From Panopea generosa (lineage: Eukaryota; Mollusca; Bivalvia; Adapedonta; Hiatellidae): a DNA stretch of 64,000 nt. The notes under the pieces are model-generated. The model saw nothing but the letters and a program-made list of their open reading frames with translations. It did not search any database and had not been told where the DNA came from. Of the stretch, positions 2,009 to 55,924 are shown in pieces (the stretch's first letter is position 1; each line of letters begins with the position of its first letter). The position numbers were made by a program, and so were the translations under genes. The stretch spans positions 63,069,656-63,133,655 of the forward strand of contig CM055905.1 in NCBI GenBank assembly GCA_029582155.1, written 5' to 3'.

Positions 2009-3398
2009 GCCGTGTCAAGGGGTTGACTACCTCCCTAATGTTGCCAATGGTATTAAAACCAGCACCGAATTCAAGGACGTTAAAGACGGGTTGGAACATG
2101 TCCAGGTGGACCTTTCCCAGATACTGAAAAGCAAAGAAGAGGATTTGAAGAAAATCAGAAAAGATAAAGACAAATGTCTGACGGACATAGACGCCGGTCG
2201 TGAGATGATAGTCAAGCACCCAGACAAAATAGTGAAGAAAGCTAAAGAAGAAGTAGACACTGTGCACAACAGATTGGAAAGTAGAGTAAACACAAACGTT
2301 CAAACACTGCGAGAAACAAAAGCAGCTCTGGACACCAGCATAAAACACTTTGACAACCTTGAGGGAGATAACGAAGTGAACTTTTTTCTAAACGTAAGAA
2401 AGGGAAAACAAAACAATCGTGAAGGAACCAAGTTACTGGAACAGCTCAAACAAACTCCAATGAATGAAACAATGAACTTTTCTTTCAACTCGGATATCAC
2501 AGATTATTTTGTTCAATTGAAGAATATTGGAGAGGTAAAGTTGACAACACTTGACAACATATATATAACCCCGCAACCTTACCCTAAGACTAGAAACATT
2601 AAACCAATCAGCTCCGCGGCTTTACACAGGGATATCACTGTCAGTGATGAGTACAGGTATAATATGATGGATTCATGTCAGCTCGATGACGGATCATTAA
2701 TGATAACAGACTGCGCAAATAACACTTTAACAAGGCTGGATACAAGCTACAAGGTTGTAGACAAGTGTACAGTCTCTGCTCGGCCATGGGGCGTGTGTCG
2801 AACAAGTCCAACAGAAGTAGCAGTAGCACTGTGTTACGACAAGAAAATACAGTTTGTATCTACATCTGACAGACTGTCCGTCTCAAGGTCATTCCAGGTG
2901 AAGGAGAAACCTAAATACCTGGCCGCCAGTAATGGAGAGTTGTTTGTCACCGGTGACGATCCACCACAAGTAGGAGTATACAACATGAACGGCAGCCACT
3001 TGAGAACCATCAGTAAGGATCCAACAGGACGGAGAATATTCGGTAACCCAAGAGGAATAGTTCTGAGCAATGATGGAACCAAAGTACACGTGATAGATTG
3101 GACAAAAGGATTGATTACCATGACAAGACAGGGACAGGTACAATACACCTTCACTGACCCACAAATCAAGTTTCCCTGGGGAGCTTGTGTCCTAGAGAAT
3201 GACAACTTACTGGTATGTGGATACAGTTCCGACAACATAATAAAAGTGGATAACCAGGGGAGGAAGATAAATGTTCTACTGACAGAGACAGATGGGATAC
3301 GCTGGCCACAGTCACTCACCTATGACGTCATCAACTCCAGACTGATTGTAACTATGGAATTTAAAAAATATATAAAAGTGTTCACCTTGTTAAGATAG
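2009..3398 (+). CDS. TRIM-like protein, coiled-coil + NHL propeller exon (copy A, 5-prime exon off window)
   Basis: This is the last exon of a B-box/NHL protein. Acceptor ATTCCAG is followed by an open frame to TAG at 3,396-3,398. The first base completes a split codon in the phase left by the B-box exon of copy B, giving EHR-PCQGVDYLPNVAN, which supplies the last B-box cysteine. The first ~150 residues are lysine/glutamate-rich coiled coil. About 245 residues of six-bladed NHL-type propeller follow, with blade motifs ITDCANNT, VALCYDKK, VTGDDPPQ, VIDWTKGL, VCGYSSDN and VTMEFKKY. The upstream in-frame TTG at 2,091 is not a start. The exon has no frameshift or stop, so if its B-box exon exists upstream the gene can be intact. 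Such proteins act as cytoplasmic ligase-like or scaffold proteins; binding partner unknown. Confidence 0.85.
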
Positions 3399-3990
3399 AC
3401 ATTGGAAACGTTAAAAGTGTGACGATAAAAGTAAAACAAAAGAAACTCCTTTTTTACACGGACTGACACGGACTATATCGAACAGTTCAGAATAAGAACA
3501 TGTAAATGAAATTGAATACAATTAACATACTAAACGTAACTGGACATCTCAGATACATGTCCGTGGTATATTTATATTGGTACGATCGCAAATGCATTCT
3601 GCTTATATGACACGACGTTAAAGAGCGCTTTAAAGTTACTATCTTATTAAGACTTCAAATGAAATATACTCTCAAATGTTTATTTTATCAATCAATGAAT
3701 ACAGATTTTATAATGTCCAATGTTTATATGTTAAACGATATAATTTTGAGTTTAAAATCAAATATCTAAACTATTTAGAATGCACAAAGAAGTAATTAAA
3801 ACATTCCAAACATAAATTGTGTTTGTTAACAATATCGAATCATCACAACAGTGTGTTACAATAGTTATAAAAAAGTATATGAAATATGTTGGTGTTCAGT
3901 GACAGCGTTATCAAAGTATATAAAAACAATTTGACAATGTGACTTTTAGTCCGATTATATTGGCCAAACGTCCAGTCCATTAAATATAAT
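3399..3990 (+). other. 3-prime flank of TRIM-like copy A
   Basis: AT-rich DNA closely matched in units B and C, so probably 3-prime UTR and downstream flank. Copy A has AATATA at about 3,663 where copy C has a canonical AATAAA. No further open frame is seen. Confidence 0.5.
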
Positions 3991-4630
3991 TATTTGCCAT
4001 GACAGATCATGTTTATACAAGTATATGTCATGACAGAGTATAGGAACAAGTATATATCATGACAGAGCATATAATACAAATAATTGTCATGATAGAGCAA
4101 ACATACAAGTATTTGTCATGACAGAGCATATATACAAGTATATGTCATGACAGAGCATAGATATAAGTATGTGTCATGGCAGAGCATAGATACAAGTATG
4201 TGTCATGACAGCGCATATATACAAGTATGTGTCATGGCAGAGCATAGATACAAGTATTTGTCATGACAGAATATATACAAGTATTTGTCATGACAGAGCA
4301 TATATACAAGTATGTGTCATAGTAGAGCATAGATACAAGTATGTGTCAATGGCGTAGCTAAGATACAAGTATGTGTCATGACAGAGCATAGATACAAGTA
4401 TATTACATGAGAGAGCATAGGTACAATTATATGATATGATAGAGCATAGATACAAATATATGTCATGACAGAGCATAAATACAAGTATATGTCATGACAG
4501 AGCATAGATACAAGTATATGTCATGACATAGCATAGATACAAGTATATTACATGAGAGAGCATAGGTTCAAGTATATGCCATGACAGAGCAGAGATACAA
4601 GTATATGATATGACAGAGCATAGACTAAAT
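3991..4630. repeat. 29-bp minisatellite, unit A
   Basis: About twenty copies of a 29-bp unit AAGTATATGTCATGACAGAG + CATAGATAC. The centre TGTCATGACA is a perfect 10-bp palindrome. Variants change TATATG to TATGTG or TATTAC and CATGACAG to CATGAGAG. Minus-strand open frames across it are low-complexity products of the repeat and are not genes. It is the shortest of the three arrays in the window. Confidence 0.92.
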
Positions 4631-5470
4631 AAATACACAAGGTAGAACTTTATATAGACTAGCTATATACCACAGTTATAAATACATATAGACTAGAATT
4701 ATATCACACGTAAAACTATATATAGACTAACTATATACCACAGGTAGACTAGCTATATACCACAGGTAGAACTTTGTATAACTTAACTATATACAACAGG
4801 TAGAACTTTGTATAGAATAACTATATACCACAAAGACAACTAATAGAAATCTGGGATTCTATTACAGAATCCTTATGGTGATACAGTTTTTCATTTTTTG
4901 TTTGTTTTAATATCATTTTCACCATATTGCCCTAGTCCAGGGCAGCTTTGACAGAGACAGCAATATATACATGTACCTCGGTATAATTATTCGGGAAAAA
5001 ACATGTAACTTCTAAGGCCAAGCTTTGGTTATTCAGCCTAACCTTACTTAGGTGAATGATAGACCAATTCACCCAGACTCAATTCACTATTTGTGCGTGT
5101 GCATTGCTGTTATTCAATACACTAAAGAGGCGAATACCTGGTATTAAATAACGTGCCGTTGTGTAAACCTGCTGGGGGGGTTGAATGGATATAATGAATG
5201 ACAATTAAGCATTGTGCATAATATGATATAGAACTCAATAGATATACACAAGAATGACACAAAGTTAAACGAATGCATACATGTCTTAAACTTATATGAT
5301 TTTAAATACATTTCAATACATATAACAATTTTGTTATTAATTATTATTTCACTAGAATGGAACGTATGCCGAAGCTAAATAATCAACATAAATGGAACAG
5401 GTATCTATTTTAACACAAATGTGAGGGAATTTAGTTGCATCAGCTGGAAACGAGCCCTAGTCCCATGAGT
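4631..5470. other. Array edge and unique spacer, unit A
   Basis: Up to about 4,830 there are degenerate units CTATATACCACAGGTAGAACTTTATATAGACTAG, resembling the intronic minisatellite rather than the 29-bp unit. The remainder is unique AT-rich spacer conserved in unit B (about 32,870-33,478) and partly in unit C (from about 59,187). No gene is seen. Confidence 0.6.
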
Positions 5471-5760: not shown

Positions 5761-6080
5761 TGATCTAACAAAAGTCTATTAAGGCCTGGTCCTGCAACTT
5801 ATTGTTTTCGTACGTTGTCCTGTCACTTATTGTGCTAGTACACTTTCCTGCCTACAGTTAGTGCCTTGTCCTCTATCAATTTTGTTAGTTACTGATGTAG
5901 ATATAAACATGATAGAGAAATGGCAACTGTGTCATAAATTATAGTGAAACAAGTTTTATTTTATCTGCATATATATACACATTTTCTATTTCATTTTGAG
6001 TTACCTACGCCATACAACAAAATACTGATACTAAAAAAAAGATATATAAAGCATAACAGTTTTCTTGATAGTATTGAGTA

Positions 6081-6565: not shown

Positions 6566-6590
6566 ATGGCGGCTACCATGGACTTTATTG

Positions 6591-13225: not shown

Positions 13226-13325
13226 GTTTACAACCAGAACTCTTGGACGGTGTCATAATGAAAAATAGTGGTATAATTCTATATGTTCCCAAACAGGATT
13301 TAAGTAATATTTTTTTTTCATTAAG

Positions 13326-13657
13326 GTTTACAGCCCGAACTATTGGACGGCGTACCTAATGAGGAACAGTGGGACATCGTGAGCGAGTTCGTTGATCAGC
13401 ATATCTACCAGTACGTCTTTCTATTTTTGGAACTTGGACTGGAATATACAGAAATCAAAAATGCTGTGAATAAAAAATTGTCCAAAGGCCATAACGTCTC
13501 GGAACTGTTTCTGATATGCAAAGAGGATCCAAAGATCACGACTAGGGTGTTAATCAACACCATTGTTGTAGTAAGCAAAGATGTTGATATAACAGCACTG
13601 GTGACCAAGCTTGCAGACATGAAGTCCTCACCTTCAGAGGCTCAGACCATGCAGTGA
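13326..13657 (+). CDS. Death-fold-like domain exon, unit A
   Basis: Terminal exon starting GTTTACAGCCCGAACTATTG and ending in TGA. After GLQPELLDGVPNEEQWDIV it has an alpha-helical domain of about 90 residues with FLELGLEYTEI, LSKGHNVSELFLICKED, TRVLINTIVVVSKDVDI and ALVTKLADM. The conserved W, the LGL-x-x-x-EI element and the final aliphatic helices suggest a death-domain-like fold. This is a pattern judgement. About 91% of residues match unit B by eye. The domain is open although upstream exons of this copy are damaged. Confidence 0.5.
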
Positions 13658-25477: not shown

Positions 25478-28400
25478 ATGGCGACGGGGTATTCAAGATC
25501 GGTGAAGGGGGGGTCCGACATTTTGTTTGACTTTCCATGTTCGTCCTGTGCCGAAGATGGTCACAATAAAGAGGCGTTCCACGGATGTGTCGACTGTGCA
25601 CATAACTTTTGTGATACATGTCTTGTGTTTCATAATAAACTTGGAATAACGAAAGGACACAAAATAGTTGATAAAGCCGCCATGGTATCCTGTCGAATGC
25701 AGACACCAACTTACCTGCCCACCGACGTATGCAGCACCCACCCAGGTAAAGTGATGGATATGTACTGCGGCACTCACGATGTCGTCTGCTGTGGAGCCTG
25801 TATAGCAATTGAACACAGGTAAGTAGGATAGTTTATAGACTAAAGACTCTATTGTACGCATTTATGACTATTTATAGACTGTACGCATGTAAAGCTTTAG
25901 TTAACATAAATGTTTATTTAACTACGGCAAATAAGATATACCGGTAGATGTATAAACACCAGAACCAATTATAAACTAGCTATTGACAACACAATGGCAA
26001 ATGTAAATACTAGTTATTGGCCATTGGTACGACAAATTACACTCTAGCTATTAACCACACAATGGACAATGTATATACTAGTTATAGGTCACAGGTAAGA
26101 CCAATTACATTCTAGCTATTGACGACACAATGGACAATATATATACAAGTTATAGGCCACAGGGAAGACCAGTTAAATACTAGCTATTGACGACACAATG
26201 GACAATGTATACACTAGTTAGAGGCCAAAGGTATGACCAATTACAGACTAGCTATTGACCACTCAATGGACAATGTATATACTAGTTATAGGCTACAGGA
26301 AGGACCAATTACATACTAGCTATTGACCACCCAATGGGCAATGTATATACAAGTTATAGGTCACAGGTAAGACCAATTACATACTAGCTATTGACCACAA
26401 AATGGACAATGTATATACTAGTTATTGGCGACAGGTAGGACTATTTATAGACTAGCTATTGACAACACAATGTGCAATGTATATACATGAACTAGTTATA
26501 TGCCACAGGTAGGACCAATTACATACTAGCTATTGACCACTTAATGGACAATGTATATACTAGTTAAGGGCCACAGGTAGGACCATTCATAGACTAGCTC
26601 TTGACCACATGTAGGACAATGTATATACTAGTTATAGGCCACAGGTAGGACCCATTATATATTGTCTATGGATCACGGTAGGACCATTTATACTGTGGAC
26701 CACATGAAGGACCATTCTATTTATAGACTAGCTGTAGACCACATATAGGAATGTTCATTGATTAAATATGCATTCAGTTATACAAACTGGATACAGGATA
26801 CACAGGAACAATTGAAGAAATATAAACTGCTTTAAATACCATTTATGGATCAGTTATATAATGCATATATACTATTTATAGACAAGTTATTACAACAAGA
26901 AAAAACATTTATAGACAAGTTACATGTAATAGCCTACATTATAGACCATTTATAGACACGTTATTGCCACAACAAAGACCATTTATAGACTAGATAATAG
27001 ACTACATATATATCATTTATAGATCAGTTGTAGACTACATGTACATATAGACCATTGATAGATCAGTTATATACTGTATAGAAACCATTTATAACAGTTA
27101 TAGACTACATATAGACTATTTATAGACTATAGACTAGTAATATTCTACATAGAGACCATTTTAAACCAGGTATATACTACATATAGACCTTTAATAGACC
27201 AGCTATAAATTTCATGAATTGATAAACTAGTTAAATACTACACTTTTATATCAGTTATATACAACATACATGTATATACCATTTATGAATATAACAATCT
27301 CAGACTACATTTGTACCATTCATAGTCTAGCTATAAATCATAGGTAGGATCATTTATAGACTAGATATAAACTACATGTAGACCACTCATATACTATCTA
27401 TTGGGGCATATAGGAAGGACAAAATAAATAGAAACACAAACCACATGTTTGGTTTTTTGTAGATTAGCTATAAAATGCATAAGGCACATTCATAGACAAG
27501 TGAGTCGAATTAAAATAAATATGCATAAACTGATAATCTCGATAGTTATGGTCGTTTTAAAAGTAAGATATGGAGAAAAGAGCGAATAAGACATGGTCAG
27601 ATGAAATATAGCTATCTTTAATGTGTTTACTGGTTTGAAGCGGAATTTGAACTTCATCATGTAAAACTTGATGATTCACGTATTTAATTTTGTACATGAA
27701 TATAATTGAATGTAATACATAGTTACATTCCAAACCGTGTGTTTATGGTTTGATATAATATTTGTAAGCCAGATGACTGAATCAGTAACAAATATTGATT
27801 TGAAAATGGAATGAATTATAATTCAAACACTCCCAAAATATGTATATTCCAGGCCGTGTCAAGGGGTTGACTACCTCCCTAATGTTGCCAAGGGTATTAA
27901 AACCAGCACCGAATTCAAGGACGTTAAAGACGGGTTGGAACATATCCAGGTAGAGCTTTCCCAGATACTGAAAAGCAAAGAAGAGGATTTGAAGAAAATC
28001 AGAAAAGATAAAGACAAATGTCTGACGGACATAGACGCCTGTCATGAGATGATAGTCAATCTCCTAGACAAAATGGTGAAGAAAGCTAAAGAAGAAGTAG
28101 ACACTGTTCACAACAGATTGGAAAGTAAAGTAAACACAGACGTTCAAACACTGCGAGAAACAAATGCAACTCTGGACATCAGCATAAAACACTTCGACAA
28201 CCTTGAGGGAGATAACGAAGTGAACTTGTTTCTAAACGTAAGAAAGGGAAAACAAAACAATCGTGAAGGAACCAAGTTACTGGAACAGCTTAAACAAACT
28301 CTAATGAATGAAACAATGAACTTTTTTTTCAACTCGGATATCATTGATTATTTTGTTCAATTGAGGAATATTGGAGAGGTAAAGTTGACAACACTTGACA

Positions 28401-29236
28401 ACGTATATATAACCCCTCAATCTTATCCTAAGACTAGAAACATTAAACCAATCAGCTCCGCGGCTTTACACAGGGATATCACTGTCAGTGATGAGAACGA
28501 GTTAGATATGATGGATTCATGTCTGCTCGATGACGGATCATTAATGATAACAGACCACGCAAATAAGACTTTAACAAGGCTGGATACAAGCTACATGGTT
28601 GTGGACAAGTGTACAGTATCTAGTAGGCCATGGGGCGTGTGTAGAACAAGTCCAACAGAAGTAGCAGTAGCACTGTATAGAGATAAGAAGATACAGTTTG
28701 TATCTACATCCGGCAGACTGTCAGTCTCCAGGTCATTCCAGGTGAAGAAGAAACCTAACTACCTGGCCGCCAGTAATGGACAGTTGTTTGTCACCGGTGA
28801 CGATCCACCACAAGTAGGAGTATACAACATGAACGGCAGCCGCTTGAGAACCATCAGTAAGGATCCAAAAGGACAGAGAATATTCAATACCCCACGAGGA
28901 ATAGTTCTGAGCAATGATAGAACCAAAGTACACGTGACAGATAATACAAAAGGAGTGATTACCATGACAAGAAAGGGACAAGTACAATACACCTTCACTG
29001 ACCCGCAGCTCGAGTCTCCCTGTGGAGCCTGTGTCCTGGAGAATGACAACTTACTGGTATGTGGGAACAGTTCCAACAACATAATACAGGTGGATAACCA
29101 GGGGAGGAAGATAAATGTTCTACTGACAGAGACAGATGGGATACACTGGCCACTGTCACTCACGTATGACGTCATTAACTCCAGACTGATTGTTATCATG
29201 AACAGGACAAATAAAATAAAAGTGTTCACCTTGTAA
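25478..29236 (+). CDS. TRIM-like B-box/coiled-coil/NHL protein, copy B (intact; exons 25478-25818 and 27853-29236)
   Basis: The two exons join in phase (341 + 1,384 nt) to give 574 residues. Exon 1 starts at ATG in GAAAATGGCG and ends at donor CAG/GTAAGT. It encodes B-box 1 (C21SSC24, C37VDC40, C45DTC48, H52, H61) and B-box 2 (C85STH88, C97GTH100, C104-C105, C108, H113, with the next C from exon 2). There is no RING, so ubiquitin ligase activity would need a partner. Exon 2 begins after TATTCCAG with PCQGVDYLPNVAK, then a Lys/Glu-rich coiled coil to about residue 290, then a six-bladed NHL-type propeller (blade motifs ITDHANKT, VALYRDKK, VTGDDPPQ, VTDNTKGV, VCGNSSNN, VIMNRTNK) to the TAA. Mollusc genomes carry many such TRIM-like genes, several linked to immunity; the target of this one is unknown. 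Confidence 0.88.
25819..27852 (+). repeat. Intron 1 of TRIM-like copy B: 68-bp minisatellite plus decayed array
   Basis: A canonical GTAAGT...CAG intron of 2,034 bp. About ten 68-bp units occupy roughly 25,960-26,690, many with CAGGTAAG or CAGGTAGG. Degenerate 30-bp units run to about 27,390, with one copy of the unit amplified in unit C near 27,390. Bases after about 27,480 are unique and conserved in all units. Confidence 0.88.
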
Positions 29237-30449: not shown

Positions 30450-32670
30450 GTACAAGTATTTGTCATTACAGAGAATATATACTTGTATCTATGCTCTGCT
30501 ATGAAACATACTTGTATCTATGCTCTGAAATGACATATACAAGTATGTGTCATGACAGAGAACATACACAAGTATGTGTCACTGCAGAGCATAGATACAA
30601 GAATATGTAAGTATGTGTCATGACAGAGTATATATATATATATAAGTATATGTCATTGCAGAGCATAGATACAAGTATGTGCCATGACAGAGCATAGATA
30701 CAAGTATATGTCATGACAGAGCATAGATACAAGTATATGTCATGACAGAGCATAGATACAATCATTCGTCATGACAGAGCATACATAAAAGTATATGTCA
30801 TGACAGAGCATAGATACAAGTATGTGTCACGGCAGAGCATAGATACAAGTTTGTGTCACGACAGAGCATAGATACAAGTTTGTGTCATGACAGAGCATAT
30901 ATACAAGTATGTGTCATGACAGAGCATATATACAAGTATGTGTCATGACAGAACATAGATACAAGTATGTTTTATTGCACAGCATAGATACAAGTATGTG
31001 TTGTTGCAGAGCATAGATACAAGTATGTGTTATTGCAGAGGATAGATAAAAGTATGTGTCATGACAGAGCATAGATACAAGTATGTGTCATGACAGAGCA
31101 TAGATACAAGTATGTGTCATGACAGAGCATAGATACGTGTATGTGTCATGATATAGCATAGATACAAGTATGTGTCTTGACAGAACATAGATACATGTAT
31201 ATGTGTCTTTGCAGATCATAGATTCAAGCATATTACATGAGAGAGCATATGTACAAGTAAGTGTCATTGCAGACCATAGATACAAATATATGCCATGACA
31301 TAGTATAGGCAAAAGTATATTACATGAGAGAGCATAGGTACAAGTGTATGATATGCAGAGTATAGATACAAGTATATTACATGAGAGAGAATAGATACAA
31401 GTATCAGTCATGACAGAGCAAAGATACAAGTATATTACATGAGAGATCATATATACAAGTATGTGTCGTGACATAGCATAGATACAAGTATATGACATGA
31501 GAGAGCATAGGTACAAGTATCTGTCATGACAGAGCATAGATACAAGTATATGTCATGACAGATCATAGATATAAGTATATTACGTGAGAGAGCATAGATA
31601 CAAGTATGTGTCGTGACATAGCATAGATACAAGTATATGACATGAGAGAGCATAGGTACAAGTATCTGTCATGACAGAGCATTGATACCAGTATATGTCA
31701 TTGTAGAGCATAGATACAAGTATATTACACGAGAGAACTTAGGTACAAGTATATGACATGATAGAGCATAGTAAACAAGTATGTGTCATGACAGATTATA
31801 GATACAAGAATGTGTCATGACAGAGCCTAGATACAAGTATGTGTCGTTGTAGAGCATTGATACAAGTATGTGTCATTGCAGAGCATAGGTACAAGTATGT
31901 GTCATGATAGAACATAGATACAAGTATGTGTAATGACAGAGTATAGATACAAGTATGTGTCATGACAGAGCATAGTTACAAGTATATGTCATGACAGGGC
32001 ATAGATATATGTATATTACGGGAGAGAGCATAGATACAAGTATATGATATGACATAGCATAGATACAAGTATATTACATGAGAGAGCATAGATACAAGTA
32101 TATTACATGACAGAGCATATATACAAGTATATGTCATGACAGAGCATAGATACAAGTATATGATTTGACAGAGCATATATACAAGTATATGATATGACAG
32201 AGCATAGATACAAGTATATGTCATGACAGATCATAGATACAAGTTTATGTCATTGCAGAGCATAGATGCAAGTATATTACATGAGAGAGCATTGATACAA
32301 GTATAAGACATGACAGAGCATTGGAACAAATATATGCCATGACAAAGCATAGATACAAGTATATGTCATGATAGAGCAAAGATACAAGTTTATGATATGA
32401 CACAACATAGATTCAAGTATATGTCATGACAAAGCATACATACAAGTATATATCACTGTAGAGCATAGATACAAGTATATGTCATGACAGACCATAGATA
32501 CAAGTATGTGTCATGACATAGCATAGATACAAGTATATTACATAAGATAGTATAGATACAAGTATATGTCATTGCAAAGCATAGATGCAAATATATTACA
32601 TAAGAGGGCTTAGGTACAAGTATAAGACATGGCATAGCATAGATACAATTATGTGTCATGGCAGAGCATA
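30450..32670. repeat. 29-bp minisatellite, unit B, main block
   Basis: About 75 units, the longest block in the window. The left end includes a few units in the opposite orientation (CTTGTATCTATGCTCTG at about 30,482-30,530), so part was inverted. From about 31,200 onward TGTCATGACAG units alternate with TTACATGAGAG variants in higher-order blocks. Minus-strand open frames up to about 150 codons are repeat artefacts. Confidence 0.92.
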
Positions 32671-33478
32671 GACTAGTAAATACATCAGGTAGAACTTTAT
32701 ATAGACTAGCTATATGCCACAGTTATAAATACATATAGACTAATATTATATCACAGGTAGAACTATATATAGGCCAACTATATACCACAGGTATACTAGA
32801 TATATACCACAGGTAGAACTTTATATAGAATAACTATATACCACATGGACAACTAATACAAATCTGGGATTATATTACAGAATCCTTATGGTGATACAGT
32901 TTCTCATTTTTTGTTTTAATATCATTTTCTCCATATTGCTCTAGTCCAGGGCAGCTTTGACAGAGACAACAATATATACATGTACTTCGGTATAATTATT
33001 CGGGAAAAACCCTGTAACATCTAAGGCCATGCTTTGGTTATTCACCCTTACCTTACTAAGGTGAATGATAGACCAATTCACTCAGACTTAATTCACTATT
33101 TGTGCGTGTGCATTGCTGTTATTCGGTACACTAAAGAGGCGAATGCCTGGTGTTAAATAACGTGCCGTTGTGTAAACCTGCTGGGTGTGAATGGATATAA
33201 TGAATGACAATTAAGCATTGTGCATATTATGATATAGAACTCAATAGATATACACAAGAATGACACAAAGTTAAACGAATGCATAAATGTCTTAAACCTA
33301 TATGATTTTAAATACATTTCAATACTTATAACGATTTTGTTATTAACTATTATCTCACTAGAATGGAACGTATGCCGAAGCTAAATAATCAACATAAATG
33401 GACCAGGTATATAGTATAACACAAATGTGAGGGGATTTGATTGCATCAGCTGGAAACGAACACTAGTCCCATGAATCA
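32671..33478. other. Array edge and spacer, unit B
   Basis: Degenerate CTATATACCACAGGTAGAAC units to about 32,850, then unique spacer equal to 4,840-5,470 in unit A. No gene. Confidence 0.5.
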
Positions 33479-34893: not shown

Positions 34894-34919
34894 TATAGGA
34901 GAGATAACTAATACGTTAT

Positions 34920-34996
34920 TATTTCGTCTAGTTTTTTTAGTTATTTCCCTTGGATTGGTAACCAACTTCCCATAATTCTCCACTCAAAGCTTCAAA
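34920..34996 (+). promoter_or_regulatory. TATA-less promoter of the death-fold gene, unit B
   Basis: Same CCAAT-complement (GATTGG) and ATG-embedding AAAATGGCGGC arrangement as unit A, with the MITE at 34,438-34,893 now ending about 100 bp upstream of the start codon. This could alter its regulation; inferred. Confidence 0.35.
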
Positions 34997-35021
34997 ATGG
35001 CGGCTACCATGGAATTTATTG
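34997..35021 (+). CDS. Candidate first exon of the death-fold gene, unit B
   Basis: ATGGCGGCTACCATGGAATT + TATTG ends at the strong donor GTAAGTGC. The second ATG has an ideal context (GCTACCATGG). Spliced to the CAG acceptor at 37,179 this frame meets TAA at once, so the exon is either 5-prime UTR, joined to an unseen exon, or spliced at the alternative TATAAG acceptor. Confidence 0.4.
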
Positions 35022-37179
35022 GTAAGTGCTTCTATTTACATTTGTATTTTGACTTTCTGCCATAAAAATGCTGATTTAAACCGTTGTAAATAGCATCAGT
35101 AATAACAGCTCCTAAAAGCAACAGCTTGGTAAGTCAATATTTTGAAGCATGTCACGAGTAGAGCACGGCAAACGATTTGACAGGTGGTTGCAAACTTTTT
35201 CCCGCCGATTGGTTTCTTTTTCCATATTTATTACATAAGTCCAAGACATTTGTGATTGGATTTTGAATGCTTTATGTAACGACGAAACTAGAATCACAAA
35301 AAATATTACAATTGACTGTTATACAGTTGTTGTAGGCATTTATCACTAGGGAAAAGAAATCGAAAACCAACTCGCACATTTTCCTCAACGAAAGCAGCTT
35401 ATCGTAACACAATGTTTACGAAAATAAAATATTCAGATTGTAAACATACTCAGAAACTTCAGCCAACACTTGACTACACTTTTATTTTTAAGAGGTGATT
35501 TTTTAACTAACAATTAATGTATGCAATTATCATCATTTCAATAATTTGTTCAGGTTAAGATCATGAGATCAAGTTTCAACATGCTTATATATATATATGG
35601 ACATAGGTTATGACATATTATTGAACATGAATTTACAGATAGGCATTAAGTACATAGATCTATTAAAAGTGCTTGTTTATGAATGAATGTGTTAAACAAG
35701 TTGACAAATTTACTTTATATGACGGACTGGATGATAATTTATAACCTGTGCCAAGTATAATTATCATGATTATAATAAATTACATGAAGTTGCGGTGGGG
35801 TAACATGCTCTAAGACCCAGAATGACTCCTGATGGGGTATCGTCCAGTATTTTTTTTTAAAAAAGTGAAAGCATGCAAATCCTTCGATGGGGATTAAAGC
35901 AGCTGGTCCCATGCACAGGGAGAGTGATACCCAGTGCACATAAAAGAGCAACTGAACTTCTGTGTTACTCAGTGATTGCACCTTCTTTACCAATGCCATT
36001 GCGAAGGACGCAGTCTGGCGTACACTCAAATGCCCTTTAACCTGTGCACTTTGTGCCTGTACACAATCCTCGAATGCAGTTACAGTAGATAGACAGAATT
36101 ATGTAATATATCACCTGATAATGAGTGTGAGATTCTTATAGTTTTATCAAGGAATTATATAGAGAAGGAAAGGCAACTGACAAAGTTTTTGTGAACGCTC
36201 GCATATTCACTCAAAATCTCACAATATCTCGTTTTTAATTATCAATAATGAATTTATCTTCACTTGAATTCATCTCAGGAACACAAATTAAAATTCTTAA
36301 ACTGCAGAATGAAATTGCCGTCAAAACAATACCACTCCCAGAAATTTGTGTTTAAATTTGTCATAGTACTTGTGATTACAATATGTGTATACTGCAGCTA
36401 AAATAACGATTAATTTTCCTTCAAACCTTAATATCTTTAATGAAATAGCATTTTGCGTGAGTGAAACATGTTTAAACACCTAAAATTGCATACAACTTAC
36501 AGTTTATGTACAAGAAATCAGTCGCCTGTGAAGTATGATTGGTCAATTTGCAAATTATGAATCCTCTTGTGCTGTTTCGTCAACATTTAGTCAGGAGATG
36601 CAAGTTTCCTATCCTTCTATACAAATCCTTAGTTTTATACATTACATATCTAAAACATTTATTTATAATTTAAGTAATCCACTAGTTCAAGATGCTATAA
36701 ACATGTTAGCATAGATCTATCAGTCATTTTATGATGTTGTCATACAAATATATCAAAATAACGTTGCTTTCAATGACGAATTAAAAAAAAAACAAGAAGA
36801 GTATGAAGAAATCTACATTTTTATGTATGTATACTATACATGTACAATAATTGATATTTATTCATTGTGTTTGTTTAAAAATATTTTAATACTTTCCCTG
36901 ACCCTGCTCACATGGAAAAACGAGGCTATCCTTATGATCTTAAAAAAATGTAGAATTGTCAAATTTTCATTCATTTTACTGACAAATAGAGGATTACTCC
37001 CATTCGATCAATAAAGTACCAAGTGAATATACCTTTTTGCATCAATGGGGCGATATTTCGTATTGAAGCAGGAATATCAAATTTAACTACTGCTGCTCAT
37101 AAGTTTTTTATATAGAAAACTTGGATAAGTAATTATTAGCTCTGACATTACAGATCTGTTTATATTGTTGTTGTTTCAG
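35022..37179 (+). other. Intron 1 of the death-fold gene, unit B
   Basis: AT-rich, containing the family-4 SINE-like repeat at about 35,785-36,070. No supported exon. It ends in TTGTTGTTTCAG as in the other units. Confidence 0.5.
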
Positions 37180-37207
37180 TATAAGATCATGCTGGCAAGA
37201 GCAGACG

Positions 37208-40200
37208 ATGCTTAGAGGTCGTAAAGTCACCGACCCCGTGGTTCAGGGAACCACTGCAGCTGGATATGAAAACACACCAGGTAGTTTTTTCGTTTAATTT
37301 ATAGCTGTGCCCAATAAGCTCAGTCGTTAGCATGTCTGACTATCAATCCCGGGGTCATGAGTTTGAATCCCCGCCTGTCAACAATCTCTGTGATTGTTGA
37401 TATACAACATTGCTTCTCATTATCGTTCGTATCTCACCGCTGATTCAAGTGGGAAAGTAATGAGTTACTTGCGGAGATGGGGTGTGCTCGAGTACTGGTT
37501 AATCCCAGGAAACAGTGGTTAGGTTAACTGATCGTCTGTTAGCCCTCGATGGCATAAAAATGATGCTAAATATTCAATAAATCAATTCAATTTAGTTTAT
37601 ACTAATATTTTTAAAAGAAATTTTATTGAGTATTTAGCATCATTTTTATGTCATTGAAGGCTAACAGAATGCTGCTCAGTTAAACCCCGGCCCCCAAAAT
37701 CTAATAGATTTACCACCTTACATTTGCACCCTGACCCCCAGGTTCTAATGACAGCCCTGCATGTGTCACTGTGCACGTAACCTACTAGGAGAGGAATTTA
37801 TGTAAGCGGTTCTGTTAGCTAAGGCGGTAGAGCATTCGCCTTGTAAGCGAAGGGTCCCAGGTTCCAGTCTCAGACCGGCGGCATATTTTTCTCGTCCTGT
37901 AATACATTGGTGCAAATGTAAGGTGGTGAATCTATTAGATTTTGTAAACACAATCATCAGAACAATTGGAAGCAGAAATTGTGACCTGAATCAGACAAAC
38001 TTTATACCCATCTAGTACATTAAGAATACAGACATGCAATGATGCATCGATTGTTACAGGGAATATATATAATAAATCAATAAACAATATAATAGGCATG
38101 CCCAGATCAAACACCATCAATAAACATATAAACTAAAAACTTTTATCGACCAACATAAAAAAATAAGCGTAAAATCATTTTACGACATAATGAGAAAAGA
38201 ACACAGTTAGGAAATGAACATGACCCCTTTTAACCTATGACCCAACAGTGCTTTCAAATAGAAATAAACTAAGGCCAAAAAAAATATGCGTTCAAATTTA
38301 GTTCAATTGAAAAAATAGTTTTGTTTTGAGTCAATATTTAAATCACTGAGTCAAAATTTTAATCGATTTTTTGTTGTTGATTTTTTTTTCTAAATTTTTT
38401 GAACCATAGAAATAAAAAAGGAAAAAAGAAATTCCCAACTTGTCACAGGAAACAAAAAAAGTTGACTGTATTATTAATATCTGGATGGTTATAGCACAGC
38501 GGTAGTCATGGGGTAGAGCATCTGCCTCACATGTGGGAGATGCTGGGTGATGATACTAGACGCTTCCTGTCTTGGTGCTCAGCTTTTAGATGATAGTTCT
38601 AGGTCTGGTCAGCCCGATGTCAGTATAATGTGAGTGGGTTTGATATCATACCATGTGTCTGCGGCATGATATTCCAGTGTAGAAGCACTCGAAATACTGT
38701 CTCATGTAGACACTCATGATATGATTGAAAAATTGTTGAAAGCAATGTTAAACACCATACAACAACCATGTTTTCTGGTTGGCCCCTGAAAAGAATATGA
38801 TAGGTGGGTAGGTTGTTCAAAGCAAGCTTCAAGTCATATGTTAACATGTCATGAATAATGTCGTTATAAATGACGAAAATGGGGAAAAAACAAAACAATG
38901 AAAATATCAATACTGTCAAACCTGTCTTAAGCAGCCAGTCAAGGGAAGGACCAAAAGTGGTTTATAAGACAGGTTGTTGCTTAATACAGGTTGATTTGTT
39001 CTGAAAGGATAGAAATGGGAAATTGTAAATATGGCTGCTTAAGACAAGTGGCTGTTTAATAGAGGTGACTGTTTCCACAGGTTTGACTGTATGTCAGTTT
39101 AAAACAGCTTACAGCCTTGTTCTTCATCGTTTTAAACGGTTAAAGTTGCATTTAACTCCATTAAAAAATCATTAAAAATTATAGAAAACATGGCATGGGT
39201 CAGAAATGACAAACAAAACAATTTAAATGGTGGCCTCGATTCATTCTTAAAATCAGTTGCCTGCCAAGTGTCGTTTTAAATGTGACGTACTTGAAAAAAC
39301 GCAAATCTGAGTGAAACATTTAGATGTTTACATTGTATTGAATTTTGTTTATTAAAGTTATTATATGATATGTATGTTATATCTTATTGAAAATTAAGTA
39401 CAAAGATGCACATTCATTTAACCAATTTATAGTTTATGTCCTCAGAGATCAAACGCTTATTAAAAGCAGTTGTGTGATTTTGATCACACGTTGATCAATT
39501 CATACCATTCAGAGGCTTGGCAAATGGCCAGTATGTTGAAGAGAGCCTTGACTGGATAGTTTTGATAGAGTTGCAGAATGTCATTCTGTTCGACTTCAAT
39601 GATGAAGATATCTTGCTGCTCTGACGTTAACGCCGGTGACAAGACTGTGCCAAATGGTTTTGATATCGTTTTATACTGCTCTTTTATTACCCCTGACTTT
39701 TCATTTGTATTTTAATTAAATGAACATTGATTGCATACTCAAACAGTGTCCCTTGTATAGACCCTTCACGATGCATTGATCAAAAGCCCAGTATATTTAT
39801 ATAATCACAGTTGCTGTTAATTTTAAAATAAGTGAAACTTTTCCTTCGACGATAGTATCGGAAATGGTAATATTATTGTGCAGAATTAGCTTGTTTGTTT
39901 GTTTAGTGTCAATTTTATGCCCTCTAGGGCTAACAGGCCATCAGTACACCCAACCACTCTTTTGTGAGATCCTGAAAGGGAAACCAGTAATCGAGAACGC
40001 CCATCTCCACAAGTAACTGATAACTTTCCCATTTTAATCAGTGGTAAGAGATGGAAAAGACACAGTGTCATATATCAGTCATCATGGAGACTGTTGCTGG
40101 GTGGGGATTCAACTCACGACCCCTGGGTTGTCACATGTACTCGGTTCTTGTCAGCAACCACGCCTTTGCGAACCATACATCCTTGTACGGATTATGCAAC

Positions 40201-41744
40201 TACCTCGACACGTTGCGGAGACGTCAACCATCAGCAAGAATGACGACAAAGCGAATTTCCCCATTTTCACAAGGATACATGGCCTGCAAGAGCGACACTG
40301 TCACTTGAGGAAATTTATTGGAACAATTAGAAAAGTACTTCACGAGGGAAGTTCTAACTGGAGTGGTTATGAGGACGGTTCCAACGGAAGATTATGGTAA
40401 TACTTTATGTTTTTTTCACAGAATTATAGTCCTCTTATTCGTTCTATTACTCAATATTTTATTGGTTGTAATTTTATGGTGAATCTTGATAGGATGCGCA
40501 TATTGTGTCGATGATCTTTACAGAGTTATGGTCCTTTGATTCTATCCATTACTAAATATTTTATTATCTGAGCCATTACATTACAACTTCTGGTTGTAAT
40601 TGTATGGTAAATCTTGCTAGGATTCGCATATTGTGTCGATGATCTTTACAGAGTTATGGTCCTTTGATTCCGTCCATTACTAAATCATTGTCTGTGCTAC
40701 ATTTAGTTCACTAAAATGTCTAGTTGGAAATATATCAAACACTCTAGGATGCGTCACTACAAAGTGAGATGTGTACAATGTCTTTGTATTTTGTTTGGAT
40801 AATTTTTCACAGAGTTATGGTCATTTCATTGTGTCCATTCCCAAATTCTTGTTTTGGTATTCAAGAGTACAGTAGGAAATTCAATGAGACTTCGAACATG
40901 TATAGAGCTCAGTGTGTTGAAGCACCAAAAATCTATTTCAAAAAGTATCTTCAATTCACACCTCCTTCCCTTTACAAACAATGCAGCTTGTACTTACTCA
41001 AGCACTTGTTTGGGAAGCATCCATTGGTTCCCCCGATATTTTGTTTTCATATTTTTGTAATATTTAACTATTATTATCTTGGTTATAACAGTATTTTTTA
41101 TTATGTACACACAGGCAGACTATAATATACATCAATCTACATACAGCATTGATACAAATACATGAATAGTGTAGAATAATGCCTATGATCCTGAAACTCG
41201 AATATAAGACCACACACTCTATTAAGACCACGTTTCTTTGGTCACAGAGGTCGTCGTTTTAGGGGTGTTTTACTGTATAGTGAATATAGATCTGCTCATT
41301 TTTTGTCTTCAGGTTTACAACCAGAACTCATGGACGGTGTCGTATTGAAAAATAGTGGTATGTTTCCATATGTTCCCAAACAGGATTTAAGTAATATATA
41401 TTTTTCATTTAGGTTTACAGCCCGAACTCTTGGACGGTGTGCCTAATGAGGAACAGTGGGACATCGTGAGCGAGTTCGTCGATCAGCATATCTACCAGTA
41501 CGTCTGTCCATTTTTGGAACTTGGACTGAAATATACAGATATCGAAACAATTGTAAATAAAAAAGTGTCAAAAGGCTATTACGTCTCACAGCTGTTTCTG
41601 ATATGCAAAGAGGATCCAAAGATCACGACTAGGGTGTTAATCAACACCATTGTTGTGGTAAGCAAAAATGTTGATATAACAGCACTGGTAACCAAGCTTG
41701 CAGACATGAAATCGTCACCCTCAGAGGCTCAGACCATGCAGTGA
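37208..41744 (+). CDS. Death-fold-like protein, unit B (exons 37180-37280, 40310-40396, 41313-41357, 41413-41744)
   Basis: From the first in-frame ATG of exon 2 (37,208) four exons join in phase (73 + 87 + 45 + 332 nt) to give 178 residues with no stop. The order is MLRGRKVTDPVVQG..., NLLEQLEKYFTREVLTGV, LQPELMDGVVLKNS, then LQPELLDGVPNEEQWDIV and a helical domain of about 90 residues (FLELGLKYTDI, VSKGYYVSQLFLICKED, TRVLINTIVVVSKNVDI, ALVTKLADM). Donors are GTAGTT, GTAATA and GTATGT; the exon 3 acceptor (TCACTTGAG) is weak. The 45-nt exon repeats the start of the last exon. The domain looks like a death-fold adaptor module; DED, CARD or DD subtype is not decided. The true start may lie upstream, since the exon 2 frame is open to its 5-prime end. 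Confidence 0.55.
37307..37588 (+). mobile_element. tRNA-derived SINE, family 1, unit B copy 3
   Basis: Ortholog of 9,030-9,310 in the intron after exon 2. Box A AAGCTCAGTCGTTAGC and box B GAGTTTGAATCC. The tail is degraded to CAATAAATCAATTCAA. Confidence 0.83.
37806..37882 (+). tRNA. tRNA-Thr(UGT)-like sequence, unit B
   Basis: GCGGTTCTGTTAGCTAAGGC, anticodon arm ATTCGCCTTGTAAGCGAA (loop CTTGTAA, anticodon TGT) and GGTTCCAGTC in place of a strict box B. Two mismatches in the acceptor stem and the altered box B argue for a tRNA pseudogene. Confidence 0.35.
37890..38477. other. AT-rich intronic DNA, unit B
   Basis: Same as 9,910-10,490 of unit A. No gene or repeat family is recognised. Confidence 0.35.
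38478..38770 (+). mobile_element. tRNA-derived SINE, family 3, unit B
   Basis: Ortholog of 10,500-10,795, with GGTTATAGCACAGCGGTAGT at the head and GTTAAACACCATACAACAAC at the end. Confidence 0.65.
38913..39089 (+). mobile_element. MITE with CAGTCAAACCTG termini, unit B copy 1
   Basis: Ortholog of 10,942-11,118. Ends CTGTCAAACCTGTCTTAAGC and ACAGGTTTGACTG lie between TA and TA. Confidence 0.75.
39484..39624 (-). CDS. Possible minus-strand exon ending in a stop, unit B
   Basis: 47 codons reading SEQQDIFIIEVEQNDILQL and then ...ASEWYELINV-stop, in the same frame and length as 11,511-11,651. TGA replaces TAA. It could be the last exon of an antisense death-fold relic, but the substitutions between the two copies are mostly non-synonymous. 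Confidence 0.22.
   Translation of the reverse strand, partial: SEQQDIFIIEVEQNDILQLYQNYPVKALFNILAICQASEWYELINV
39891..40130 (-). mobile_element. tRNA-derived SINE, family 1, minus strand, unit B copy 4
   Basis: Ortholog of 11,905-12,150. It supplies most of the + strand open frames at 40,041-40,400, which are therefore rejected as genes. Confidence 0.75.
40397..41312 (+). other. Intron 3 of the death-fold gene, unit B
   Basis: Contains an internal tandem duplication not in unit A: the stretch TTTACAGAGTTATGGTCCTT with GATAGGATGCGCATATTGTG / GCTAGGATTCGCATATTGTG recurs near 40,490 and 40,620. No exon is seen apart from the 45-nt exon that follows. Confidence 0.45.
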
Positions 41745-50645: not shown

Positions 50646-50999
50646 ATGGCAACGGAGTATTCAAGATCGGTGGAGGGCGGATCCGACATTTTGTTTGACT
50701 TTCCATGTTCGTCCTGTGCCAAAGATGGTCACAATAGAGAAGCGTTCCACGGATGTGTCGACTGTGCGCAGAACTTTTGTGATAAATGCCTTGTGCTTCA
50801 TAATAAACTTGGAATAACGAAAGGACACAAAATAGTTGATAAAGCCGGCATGGTGTCCAGTCGAATGCAGAAACCAACTTACCTGCCCACCGACGTATGC
50901 AGTACCCACCCTGGTAAACAGATGGATATGTACTGCGGCACTCACGATATCGTCTGCTGCGGAGCCTGTATATCAACTGAACACAGGATAGCAGGATAG
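50646..50999 (+). CDS. B-box exon of TRIM-like copy C; splice donor mutated
   Basis: ATG in AAAATGGCAACG opens the same two B-boxes as copy B, with all zinc ligands kept (CSSC, CVDC, CDKC, H, H; CSTH, CGTH, CC, C, H). At the exon end copy B reads ACACAG/GTAAGTAGG, while copy C reads ACACAG/GATAGCAGG, so the donor GT is GA (50,987-50,988). Without splicing the frame continues EHRIAG-stop, giving a 117-residue B-box-only protein. With splicing it would join 54,544 in phase. The open frame can be read upstream without a stop, but no ATG occurs there, so 50,646 is the start. It is either a pseudogene in the making or a truncated decoy-like form. Confidence 0.75.
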   Translation: MATEYSRSVEGGSDILFDFPCSSCAKDGHNREAFHGCVDCAQNFCDKCLVLHNKLGITKGHKIVDKAGMVSSRMQKPTYLPTDVCSTHPGKQMDMYCGTHDIVCCGACISTEHRIAG

Positions 51000-52480: not shown

Positions 52481-53435
52481 GTGGACCACATGAATTGATA
52501 GACTATTTATAGACTAGCTGTGGACCACATATAGGAAAGTTCATAGATTAAATATGCATTCAGTTATACAAACTTGATATAGGATACACAGGAAGAACAA
52601 TTGAAGAAAAATAGACTGCATTTTATACCATTTATAGATCAGTTATAGAATACATATAGACTATTTATAGACAAGTTATTTCAATCAGAAAAAAAACATT
52701 TATAGACAAGTTACATGTAATAGACTACATTATAGATCATTTATAGACTAGTTATTGGACTACATTATAGACCATTTATAGACAAGTTATTGCCACAAGA
52801 AAGTCCATTTATAGACAAGATAATAGAATACATGTATACCATTTATAGATCAGTTGTAGACTGCCTGTACATAAATACCATTGATAGATCAGTTATATAC
52901 TTTATAGAAACCATTTATAGAACAGTTATAGACTACATATAGATAATGTATAGACAAGTTATAAACTATACATGTACCATTGATAGACTATATATATACT
53001 CCATATATACCATTTATAGACTAGATATATACTCCATATATACCATTTATAGACCAGATATATACTACATATAGACCATTTATAGACCAGCCATAAGATA
53101 CACGGGATTTGGCCATTTTTAGACTAGCTATTAATCACATATATACCATTTATAGACTAGCTATACACTATATCGAGAGCATTTATAGACAAGTTATAGA
53201 CTACATATAGACTATTTATAGACTATAGACTAGTTATATTCTACATAGATACCATTTTAAACCAGGTATATACTACATATAGACCATTAATAGACCAGCT
53301 ATAGATTTCATGAATTGATAAACTAGTTAAATACTACACTAATATACCAGTTATATACTACATACATGTATATACCATTTATGAATAAAACAATCACAGA
53401 CTACACATGTACCATTCATAGTCTAGCTATAAATC
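52481..53435. repeat. Degenerate 30-bp array, TRIM-like copy C intron
   Basis: Units of ACCATTTATAGACTAGTTATAGACTACATATAG with many variants, matching the equivalent stretch in copies A and B. Confidence 0.7.
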
Positions 53436-54165
53436 ATTGATAGACTAGATATAAACTATATGTAGACCATTCATATACTATCTATTGGGGGCATATAGGA
53501 AATATTATTTATAAAAAACACCAATCACATGCTTGGCTGTTTGTAGACTAGATATAAACTACATGTAGACCATTCATATACTATCTATTGGGGCATATAA
53601 GGACAATTTATAGAAACACCAACCACATGTTTGGTTGTTTGTAGACTAGATATAAACTACATGTAGACCATTCATATACTATCTATTGGGGCATATAGGA
53701 AGGATAATTTATAGAAACACCAACCATATGTTTGTTTTTTTGTAGACTAGATATAAACTACATGTAGACCATTCATATACTATCTGTTGGGGCATATAGG
53801 AAATATTATTTATAAAAAACACCAATCACATGTTTGGTTGTTTGTAGACTAGATATAAACTACATGTAGACCATTCATATACTATCTATTGGGGCATATA
53901 AGAAGGACTGTTTATAGAAACACCAGCTACATGTTTGGTTGTTTGTAGACTAGATATAAACTACATGTAGACCATTCATATACTATCTATTGGGGCATAT
54001 AGGAAGGACTATTTGTAGACACATCAACCACATGTTCGGTTGTCTGTAGACTTGCTATAAACTACATGTAGACCATTCATATACTATCTATTGAGGCATA
54101 TAGGAAGGACTATTTATAAAAACACCAATCACATGTTTGGTTGTTTGTAGACTTGCTATAAAATA
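53436..54165. repeat. 100-bp tandem array, copy C only
   Basis: Seven copies, spaced about 100 bp, of CATTCATATACTATCTATTG + GGGCATATAGGAAGGA, CACCAACCACATGTTTGGTT and TAGACTAGATATAAACTACA. Copies A (about 1,545) and B (about 27,390) have only one. It is a recent expansion. Confidence 0.92.
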
Positions 54166-54543
54166 CATAAGGCACATTCATAGACGAGTGAGTCGAGCTA
54201 AAATAAATATGCATCAACTGAATATCTCGATAGATATGGTCATTTTAAAAGTAAGATATGGAGAAGTGAGCGAAAAAGTCTGACATGCAGAAAAAAGATA
54301 ACTATCTATAATGTGTTTACTGGTGAGAAGCGGAATTTGAACTTCATGAATGTAAAACATGATAATTCACGTATTTAATTTTGCACATGAATATATCTGA
54401 ATGTAATACATAGTTACATTCCAAACCGTGTGTTTATGGTTTGATATAATATTTGTAAGCCGGATGACTGAATCAGTAACAAATATTGATTTGAAAATGG
54501 AATGAATTATAATTCAAACACTCCCAAAATATGTATATTCCAG

Positions 54544-55924
54544 GCCGTGTCAAGGGGTTGACTACCTCCCTAATGTTGCCAAGGGTATTAAAACCAGCAC
54601 CGAATTCAAGGATGTTAAAGACGGGTTGGAACATGTCCAGGTGGACCTTTCCCAGATACTGAAAAGCAAAGAAGAGGATTTGAAGAAAATCAGAAAAGAT
54701 AAAGACAAATGTCTGACGGACATAGACGCCGGTCGTGAGATGATAGTCAAGCACCTAGACGAAATGGTGAAGAAAGCTAAAGAAGAAGTAGACACTGTGC
54801 ACAACAGATTGGAAAGTAAAGTAAACACAGACGTTCAAACACTGCGAGAAACAAAAGCAGCTCTGGACATCAACATAAAACACTTTGACAAAGTTGAGGG
54901 AGATAACGAAGTGAACTTGTTTCTAAACGTAAGAAAGGGAAAACAAAACAATCGTGAAGGAACCAAGTTACTGGAACAGCTTAAACAAACTCCAATGAAT
55001 GAAACAATGAACTTTTCTTTCAACTCGGATATCACTGATTATTTTGTTCAATTGGTGCATATTGGAGAGGTAAAGTTGACAACACTTGACAACGTATATA
55101 TAACCCCTCAATCTTATCCTAAGACTAGCAACATTAAACAAATCAGCTCCGCGGCTTTACACAGGGATATCACTGTCAGTGATGAGTACACGTGTGATAT
55201 GATGGATTCATGTCTGCTCGATGACGGATCATTAATAATAACAGACTGCCAAAATAAGACTTTAACAAGGTTGGATACAAGCTACAAGGTTGTGGACAAG
55301 TGTACAGTATCTGCTCAGCCAATGGGCGTGTGTAGAACAAGTCCAACAGAAGTAGCAGTTGCACTGTATGACGACGAGAAGATACAGTTTGTATCTACAT
55401 CCGGCAGACTGTCAGTCTCAAGGTCATTCCAGGTGAAAGAGCAACCTGACTACCTGGCCGCCAGTAATGGAGAGTTGTTTGTCACTAGTTACCATCCACC
55501 ACAAGTAGGAGTATACAACATGACCGGCAGCCACTTGAGAACCATCAGTAAGGATCCAACAGGAAAGAGAATATTCGACAACCCAAGAGCAATCGTTCTG
55601 AGCAATGATGGAACCAAAGTACACGTGATTGATGAGACAAAAGGAGTGATTACCATGACAAGACAGGGACAAGTACAATACACCTTCACTGACCCACAAC
55701 TCGAGTCTCCCTGGGGAGCTTGTGTCCTGGAGAATGACGACTTACTGGTATGTGGATACAGTTCAATCAACATAATACAGGTGGATAACCAGGGGAGGAA
55801 GATAAATGTTCTACTGACAGAGACAGATCGGATACAGTCACTCACGTATGACGTCATCAACTCCAGACTGATTGGTACCATCAGCTGTCCAAACTATATA
55901 AAAGTGTTCACCTTGATAAGATAG
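54544..55924 (+). CDS. TRIM-like coiled-coil + NHL propeller exon, copy C
   Basis: Acceptor ATTCCAG is intact and the frame is open to TAG. The coiled coil is nearly that of copy A. Propeller blade motifs are ITDCQNKT, VALYDDEK, VTSYHPPQ, VIDETKGV, VCGYSSIN and GTISCPNY. Relative to copies A and B the segment before the last blade is three residues shorter (DRIQSL against DGIRWPQSL). Because the donor at 50,987 is lost, this exon may not be joined to a B-box. The absence of any stop suggests the donor loss is recent or that another 5-prime exon is used. Confidence 0.78.

Follow-up and report, generated by a model that had tools for sequence, protein, structure and literature searches.

Loops on one face of an NHL propeller evolve with dN/dS above one in arrays of TRIM-like genes of the clam Panopea generosa

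A 64,000-nucleotide stretch of the genome of the clam Panopea generosa (contig CM055905.1, C12:63069656-63133655; hereafter the window) carries three copies, A, B and C, of a gene resembling those of TRIM proteins, each coding for a propeller of NHL repeats. An earlier note on this stretch proposed that the copies differ, blade by blade, in loops on a single face of the propeller. Do the differences lie on one face? Has selection favoured them, and does the same pattern occur in the other copies of the genome? If so, what might such a face recognize? Our answer to the first questions is that the propeller's b-c and d-a loops lie together on one face and evolve with a ratio of replacement to silent substitution rates (dN/dS, omega) above 1 in many arrays, with far less change in the strands and on the opposite face.

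The open reading frames (ORFs) concerned are second exons of genes whose first exon codes for two B-boxes. Each is open, has the acceptor TATTCCAG in common with the others, and codes for a putative coiled-coil part followed by the propeller, to which NHL profiles of Pfam match weakly. The exon-2 proteins of B and C show 87-88% identity to A.

2009-3398, + strand: exon 2 of copy A, coiled coil (2010-2564) and six-bladed NHL propeller (2565-3395); open frame, acceptor, weak NHL Pfam match, AlphaFold2 model
27853-29236, + strand: exon 2 of copy B, coiled coil and NHL; open frame, acceptor
54544-55924, + strand: exon 2 of copy C, coiled coil and NHL, three residues shorter in the d-a loop of blade 6; open frame, alignment

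The structural model is an AlphaFold2 prediction for copy A (predicted local distance difference test, pLDDT, 91.9; predicted template modelling score, pTM, 0.90) and displays the six blades that had been proposed. Loop and strand classes were taken from DSSP on this model, blind to variation, and faces were assigned by strand order, not by coordinates. The variable segments are the b-c and d-a loops, and these do lie on one face, as the earlier note claimed; we term them top loops and those of the opposite face bottom loops. The top loops of copy A are listed here by blade, P(omega>1) being a site-model probability.

2640-2660, + strand: da1 (VSDEYRY), DSSP on model
2712-2723, + strand: bc1 (CANN), DSSP on model
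2772-2783, + strand: da2 (VSAR), DSSP on model, two sites with P(omega>1) above 0.9
2832-2843, + strand: bc2 (CYDK), DSSP on model and site model
2898-2909, + strand: da3 (VKEK), DSSP on model
2958-2963, + strand: bc3 (DP), DSSP on model and site model
3012-3047, + strand: da4 (SKDPTGRRIFGN), DSSP on model
3099-3107, + strand: bc4 (WTK), DSSP on model and site model
3153-3173, + strand: da5 (TDPQIKF), DSSP on model
3222-3236, + strand: bc5 (YSSDN), DSSP on model
3282-3305, + strand: da6 (TETDGIRW), DSSP on model and site model
3360-3368, + strand: bc6 (FKK), DSSP on model and site model

With the DSSP classes, residues differ among A, B and C at 30 of 63 top-loop positions, 22 of 151 strand positions and 6 of 46 bottom-loop positions, so that the earlier description of the bottom loops as almost fixed is roughly right (top against bottom loops, Fisher p = 1.7e-4). 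Thirteen of the 22 differing strand sites are in the top third of the strands and, by height, the differences number 43/113 in the top layer, 4/51 in the middle and 11/96 in the bottom layer. Classes drawn from the motif register give 40/71 differing codons in top loops, 8/53 in bottom loops and 11/136 in strands. When labels are shifted circularly the observed overlap is reached by none of 259 shifts of the motif labels and by one of 259 for the DSSP top layer. Nine loop codons have a different residue in each copy, all of them in top loops; two further such codons are in strands. The note had also stated that the segment after the second strand differs in every blade. The loop strings it quoted are found in the alignment, but the b-c loop of blade 3 is the same in A and B and only C differs.

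By counting, dN among the three copies is 0.241 in top loops and 0.038 in bottom loops, compared to a dS of 0.118 for the NHL part. Within the top loops dS is itself raised, 0.168 as opposed to 0.118 for the whole NHL, the corresponding dN values being 0.241 and 0.092. In a codon likelihood model whose classes share branch lengths, omega is 2.21 for top loops (likelihood ratio test against 1, p = 0.0012), 0.32 for bottom loops and 0.48 for strands, with top and bottom loops distinct at p = 4e-8. Codons with two or three changes account for 24 of 80 pairwise differences in top loops and 0 of 20 in bottom loops; with multi-nucleotide changes allowed the top-loop omega is 1.90 (p = 0.015). The check that had been suggested, dN/dS by loop class on a structure model, therefore returns values above 1 in the top loops and lower ones elsewhere. 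Neither variable positions on both faces nor loops lacking an excess were seen.

The array extends beyond the window. Ten exon-2 copies, all on the + strand, lie in 264 kb surrounding the window plus 5 kb. We sort them into five NHL types: U3; U2; A and D; B and E; C, F, U1 and G. In five-type analyses U1, D, E, F and G are represented by their types. The D-E-F units (window coordinates approximately 84-141 kb) copy A-B-C (0-56 kb) at an offset of about 85 kb and differ by 0-1.1% in the intron and downstream stretches compared. They are either a recent block duplication or an assembly duplicate; we rejected them as independent copies and did not count them as separate types. Over the five types omega is 2.62 for top loops (p = 2.3e-7 against 1) and 0.40 for bottom loops, or 2.19 (p = 1.7e-4) and 0.38 with double-nucleotide changes. 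The structure-blind M1a/M2a comparison gives 2dlnL, twice the log-likelihood difference, of 54.95 (31.34 with double changes). It places 22 sites at P above 0.5, 19 in top loops and three at top strand ends (20 sites with double changes, 18 and two, respectively). Selected sites are present in all six b-c loops and in five of the six d-a loops, and in 10/10 type pairs dN(top loops) exceeds dS(NHL), by a ratio of 1.62-3.37.

A search of the genome (1.47 Gb, 39 contigs) with the exon-2 protein produced at least 93 matches at E up to 1e-20, a lower bound because 92 of 1039 first-look candidates were scored. Among the listed matches five are partial and nine carry an internal stop, three of the nine being of B type and ending two codons early. 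We took 40 exon pieces and compared eight arrays with 39 distinct members. Near-identical NHLs were dropped (two of four in C12 37.9 Mb, one of three in C11), and L034 (same type as E), L043 and L069 belong to no array group. The ratio dN(top loops)/dS(NHL) is 2.09 in the C12 window array (11 types), 2.38 in C18, 2.41 in C9 36.5 Mb, 1.74 in C9 5.8 Mb, 2.23 in C5, 2.01 in C4, 1.98 in C12 37.9 Mb (two distinct members) and 3.76 in C11 (two distinct). That range of 1.74-3.76 compares to 0.38-0.79 for bottom loops across all eight arrays. Variable residues favour top over bottom loops at p < 0.05 in six of the eight, and a Mantel-Haenszel test on the seven arrays other than the window array gives an odds ratio (OR) of 3.24, p = 1.1e-11. 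Over 108 pairs, which share sequences and are not independent, dN exceeds dS for top loops in 106 and for bottom loops in five.

In the six arrays with at least three distinct members the double-change model assigns top loops an omega of 1.91-2.76, all p < 0.011 against 1, and four-class fits assign bottom loops 0.33-0.89. M2a on the 11-type array puts 8% of sites at omega 5.8 (2dlnL 81.6). Sites with P > 0.9 are in top loops in 11/13 cases in C12, 5/6 in C18, 8/13 in C5 and 7/11 in C4; eleven of the other 12 are at top strand ends and one (C18) is in a strand. At P > 0.5, three of 28 sites in C4 are in strands or a bottom loop. Twenty-one columns exceed P = 0.5 in three or more of the six arrays (16 in top loops, five at top strand ends), or 15 (11 and four) when the degenerate run is left out. 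Circular label shifts genome-wide reach the top-loop count in 0/259 cases and the top-layer count in 1/259. Positively selected codons are thus nearly confined to the d-a and b-c loops, the rest being top strand ends and, in C18, some strands.

The nearest named relatives, at 20-29% identity, are clam proteins, from Mercenaria mercenaria and Ruditapes philippinarum. Protein homologue searches gave 1, 3 and 16 proteins, of which P0015 and P0016 were not used. Eleven of 14 clam relatives start MATGG and precomputed domains reveal a RING in none of the 14. When three clam paralogue pairs are pooled, they too vary more in top than in bottom loops (OR 2.85, p = 2e-4). Singly, P0008/P0009 is significant (p = 0.005) and P0006/P0007 (p = 0.069) and P0002/P0004 (p = 0.059) fall short. 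Within the top layer the variable positions overlap those of A/B/C in P0006/P0007 (p = 0.012) and P0008/P0009 (p = 0.002), not in P0002/P0004 (p = 0.31).

What kind of protein carries this propeller? Two first exons in the window provide the N-terminal part.

25478-25818, + strand: exon 1 of copy B, two B-boxes (Pfam zf-B_box, two stretches), donor CAG|GTAAGT, in-frame join to exon 2
50646-50986, + strand: exon 1 of copy C, two B-boxes (Pfam), without canonical GT donor (GATAGC); compared with exon 1 of F and U1

In copy B exon 1 leads to exon 2 at 27853 with the frame kept across the join. The two zf-B_box stretches in exon 1 of B and C score E values of 2.2e-7 and 3.3e-8. No RING was matched by Pfam in these two exons, both of which begin with Met, and an upstream exon is possible. 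Pfam scans of exons 1 and 2 found no NACHT/STAND ATPase domain, and in Pfam and the AlphaFold2 model NHL stands where a B30.2 domain, not found, would be. The N-terminal part of a profile, A4, drawn solely from the clam relatives, aligns to chains of TRIM28, TRIM25 and TRIM72. By its predicted domain order, the family is TRIM-NHL-like with no RING found. It is large, of TRIM type and probably bivalve, with two B-boxes, a putative coiled coil, a six-bladed NHL and no RING detected. That copy C is a plain pseudogene is, despite the lost exon-1 donor, not borne out by exon 2, its own omega outside the top layer being 0.36 as opposed to 0.24 (p = 0.50). The units also carry an ORF of about 110 residues (13325-13654 and 41412-41741 in the window), found at ten places in the region, approximately one per unit, with two copies in pieces and one more with a stop. 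Its likeness to a death fold is by eye only, and Pfam and PDB searches gave no convincing match.

Copies arise by tandem duplication and swap segments. The A, B and C units are tandem duplicates of about 26 kb each with 90-93% identity over colinear blocks. U3 and U2 share a near-identical intron piece (4/438 differences) and coiled coil (3/555), while the NHL differs at 66/826 and the downstream stretch by 12.8%. U1 and C have near-identical second exons (5 and 8 nt), with an intron piece 19.7% and a downstream stretch 6.9% different. It thus appears that units trade halves as well as whole exons. Recombination is also indicated by the 41 informative sites of exon 2, where neighbours are mutually compatible more often than after permutation (equalled in 0, 2 and 0 of 1000 permutations at three window sizes). 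Loops recur in new combinations: bc2 YRDK, for example, is found in U3 as well as B, and bc4 ETK is common to U3, U2 and C. The unit background joins B with C (odd-one-out counts 160, 74 and 60 for A, B and C), whereas exon 2 forms a star (45, 51 and 40; p = 2e-4). Outside the gene the B and C units (34894-38523 compared to 60330-64000) resemble one another (94%) more than either resembles A, the exons being equidistant. A 29-bp minisatellite lies 3' of each exon 2 (4015-4624, 30636-32672 and 56507-59179; about 21, 70 and 81 copies), 68-bp arrays occur within introns and a 101-bp array within the intron of C. Such tandem arrays could favour exchange between units.

One claim of the earlier note did not survive. 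It took the coiled coil to be almost fixed, yet among A, B and C this part is under no constraint; maximum likelihood gives omega of 1.13 (p = 0.76 against 1), with dN about equal to dS by counting, and the similarity reflects recent homogenisation of one stretch.

1850-2564, + strand: low-divergence stretch among A, B and C, end of the intron and coiled coil, read as a homogenised block from neutral-site variation

Conservation by constraint was rejected on that omega and because the block spans the intron-exon border. In the intron 47/299 neutral sites vary up to 1849 compared to 6/155 in 1850-2004 (p = 9e-5), and by maximum likelihood the silent rate of the coiled coil is 0.32 of that of the NHL part (p = 0.002). 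Fourfold sites vary at 3/57 in the coiled coil and 15/102 in the NHL, not significant alone (p = 0.12), and a scan for low blocks was matched by 1/300 permutations. A tract of low divergence over an intron-exon border would be expected of conversion or exchange, which it resembles. Homogenisation of the coiled coil is not general, its dS being 0.10-0.17 in C18, C5 and C4.

Taken together, we consider it probable that duplication and exchange shuffle copies while positive selection diversifies the binding face of the propeller in a large receptor family, driven most likely by an arms race with pathogens. The model and the omega values bear out the earlier proposal of a surface diversifying blade by blade in a tandem array; that it serves recognition is our inference, and pathogens would be the partner. 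Known NHL structures bind ligand through this face (PMC9070667, PMC5908797). The variable face would offer a surface for a changing ligand, with a binding specificity different in each copy. The coiled coil would make the receptor multimeric, hence multivalent, and the B-boxes may assemble it or pass on a signal. The arms race would most likely be with pathogen proteins, and the family would act as an innate recognition repertoire.

Several observations weigh against this reading. Counting on three copies alone leaves omega above 1 unsettled, because a codon bootstrap of the top-loop value on its own dS spans 0.71-3.59, and the wider top layer, with multi-nucleotide changes, is not above 1 (omega 1.39, p = 0.19). 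Two arrays, C9 5.8 Mb (p = 0.14) and C12 37.9 Mb (p = 0.052), fall short of significance in the contrast between top and bottom loops alone. In C9 36.5 Mb (three members), where the rest of the NHL has an omega of 1.05, M2a does not reach significance (p = 0.10), and in C9 5.8 Mb (three members) it is degenerate, with 64 sites of all classes. In C18 four of 17 sites with P > 0.5 are in strands. Within types the NHL replacements are mixed, all three of A/D in top loops, those of C/U1 and C/G in strands. Recombination breaks the one-tree assumption of site models, though pairwise counts agree. Some copies also appear damaged. The donor site of exon 1 in copy C (50987-50992) reads GATAGC, the GT being lost where F and U1, of the same exon-2 type, have GTAAGC, and the frame, if read on, soon ends at a stop, a few codons later. 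In copy E, exon 1 (window coordinates 110366-110688, beyond the end of the window) matches as two pieces in different frames, the first frame being interrupted by a stop, so genes of the array die as well as arise.

Could the face bind RNA instead, as in Brat and LIN41, with a specificity per copy for, say, viral or transposon RNA? The NHLs of Brat and LIN41 bind RNA on the top surface and that of Mei-P26 also binds RNA (PMC9070667, PMC5908797), and fold neighbours of our model include LIN41 and TRIM71 RNA complexes. Against this, there is no conserved basic patch. The net charge of the top layer, from charge counts rather than an electrostatic map, runs from -9 to +3 over 50 copies (mean -1.7; A +2, B +1, C -8), which makes RNA less likely as the general ligand; we think diversifying RNA recognition unlikely. 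Unlikely too, and already disfavoured, is relaxed constraint, by which the top-face loops merely tolerate change and drift after duplication. Loops are in general less constrained, human TRIM NHLs vary most near blade-connecting loops and the top opening (PMC9634614), and the omega values quoted above for the wider top layer and for the rest of the NHL in C9 36.5 Mb fit. However, bottom loops remain at 0.33-0.89, the top-loop omega is above 1 in 6/6 arrays at p < 0.011, and M2a finds in the 11-type array a class of sites at 5.8. That the ligands are polymorphic proteins of the clam's own species, in self/non-self or gamete recognition, strikes us as rather improbable. The closest mechanistic parallel, HNWD of Podospora, is an allorecognition system (PMC1805685), and birth and exchange in arrays suit such a role as well as they suit the reading of pathogens; nothing specific speaks either way, and the TRIM-type architecture would suggest an intracellular role. 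Very improbable, and already disfavoured, is an artefact in which exchange between divergent copies and multi-nucleotide mutations cluster differences in loops, for although recombination is present and multiple-change codons are commoner in top loops, neither process has reason to track which loops face the same way, silent sites of the top loops rise less than replacements, and omega there stays above 1 with multi-nucleotide changes allowed.

How does selection on the propeller face compare to known systems? The HNWD family of Podospora anserina (het-d, het-e, het-r) likewise has a beta-propeller recognition domain and exchange between members, and positive selection there acts on codons of the d-a loop and of the b-c turn, which lie on the top platform to either side of a conserved residue (PMC1805685, PMC2873952). 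There the propeller is WD40, not NHL, in NACHT STAND proteins of a fungus, and near-identical repeats are exchanged within and between genes, whereas each blade of the clam family has its own sequence. The finTRIMs of teleosts, 84 genes in zebrafish, form a large clustered TRIM family with a near-identical N-terminal part and a positively selected C-terminal domain (PMC2657112), but there a RING is present and B30.2 recognizes, in place of an NHL propeller with no RING found. The clam family, without NACHT/WD40 and without B30.2, is therefore a member of neither, and convergence of its diversification with that of fungal HNWD receptors (PMC1805685) and fish finTRIMs (PMC2657112) is the best reading. 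Coral tachylectin-2 is a positively selected propeller protein of immunity, although its selected sites are without significant spatial clustering, unlike the clam sites on one face (PMC2880987).

Class VII TRIM-NHL proteins (TRIM2, TRIM3, TRIM71, Brat, Thin, Mei-P26) share the NHL fold and the predicted order B-box, coiled coil, NHL. They are known as conserved regulators, whereas the clam family numbers at least 93 matches in a single genome and diversifies on one face. Between human and mouse, group 1 TRIMs, which take in non-SPRY members such as TRIM2, have a mean Ka/Ks of 0.13, and in that vertebrate analysis fast evolution falls on SPRY TRIMs, those with other C-terminal domains being conserved (PMC2533329). 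Among the matches listed in open-licence literature, none described diversifying selection acting on an NHL face, and none dealt with this bivalve family. What we file as new is a diversifying receptor family on a TRIM-NHL scaffold; diversifying receptor families are already known.

A bolder proposal, for which we judge the chances evenly balanced, is that bivalves hold a germ-line repertoire of approximately 90 or more, perhaps several hundred, RING-less TRIM-NHL-type receptors. The twelve top loops would be separately variable cassettes on a fixed scaffold; gene conversion would shuffle them among the tandem copies, and positive selection would refine them. Such a combinatorial system, NLR-like or VLR-like, would rest on a TRIM propeller and use convergently the same two loops as fungal HNWD. 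In this very large family of an animal without antibodies the NHL propeller is the diversifying part, and the selected positions fall in the same two loops as those of fungal allorecognition propellers. Since the positions that vary are known, small in number and located on one surface, specificity is directly testable by loop swaps, and the natural variants, differing mainly on the presumed binding face, constitute a set for ligand search.

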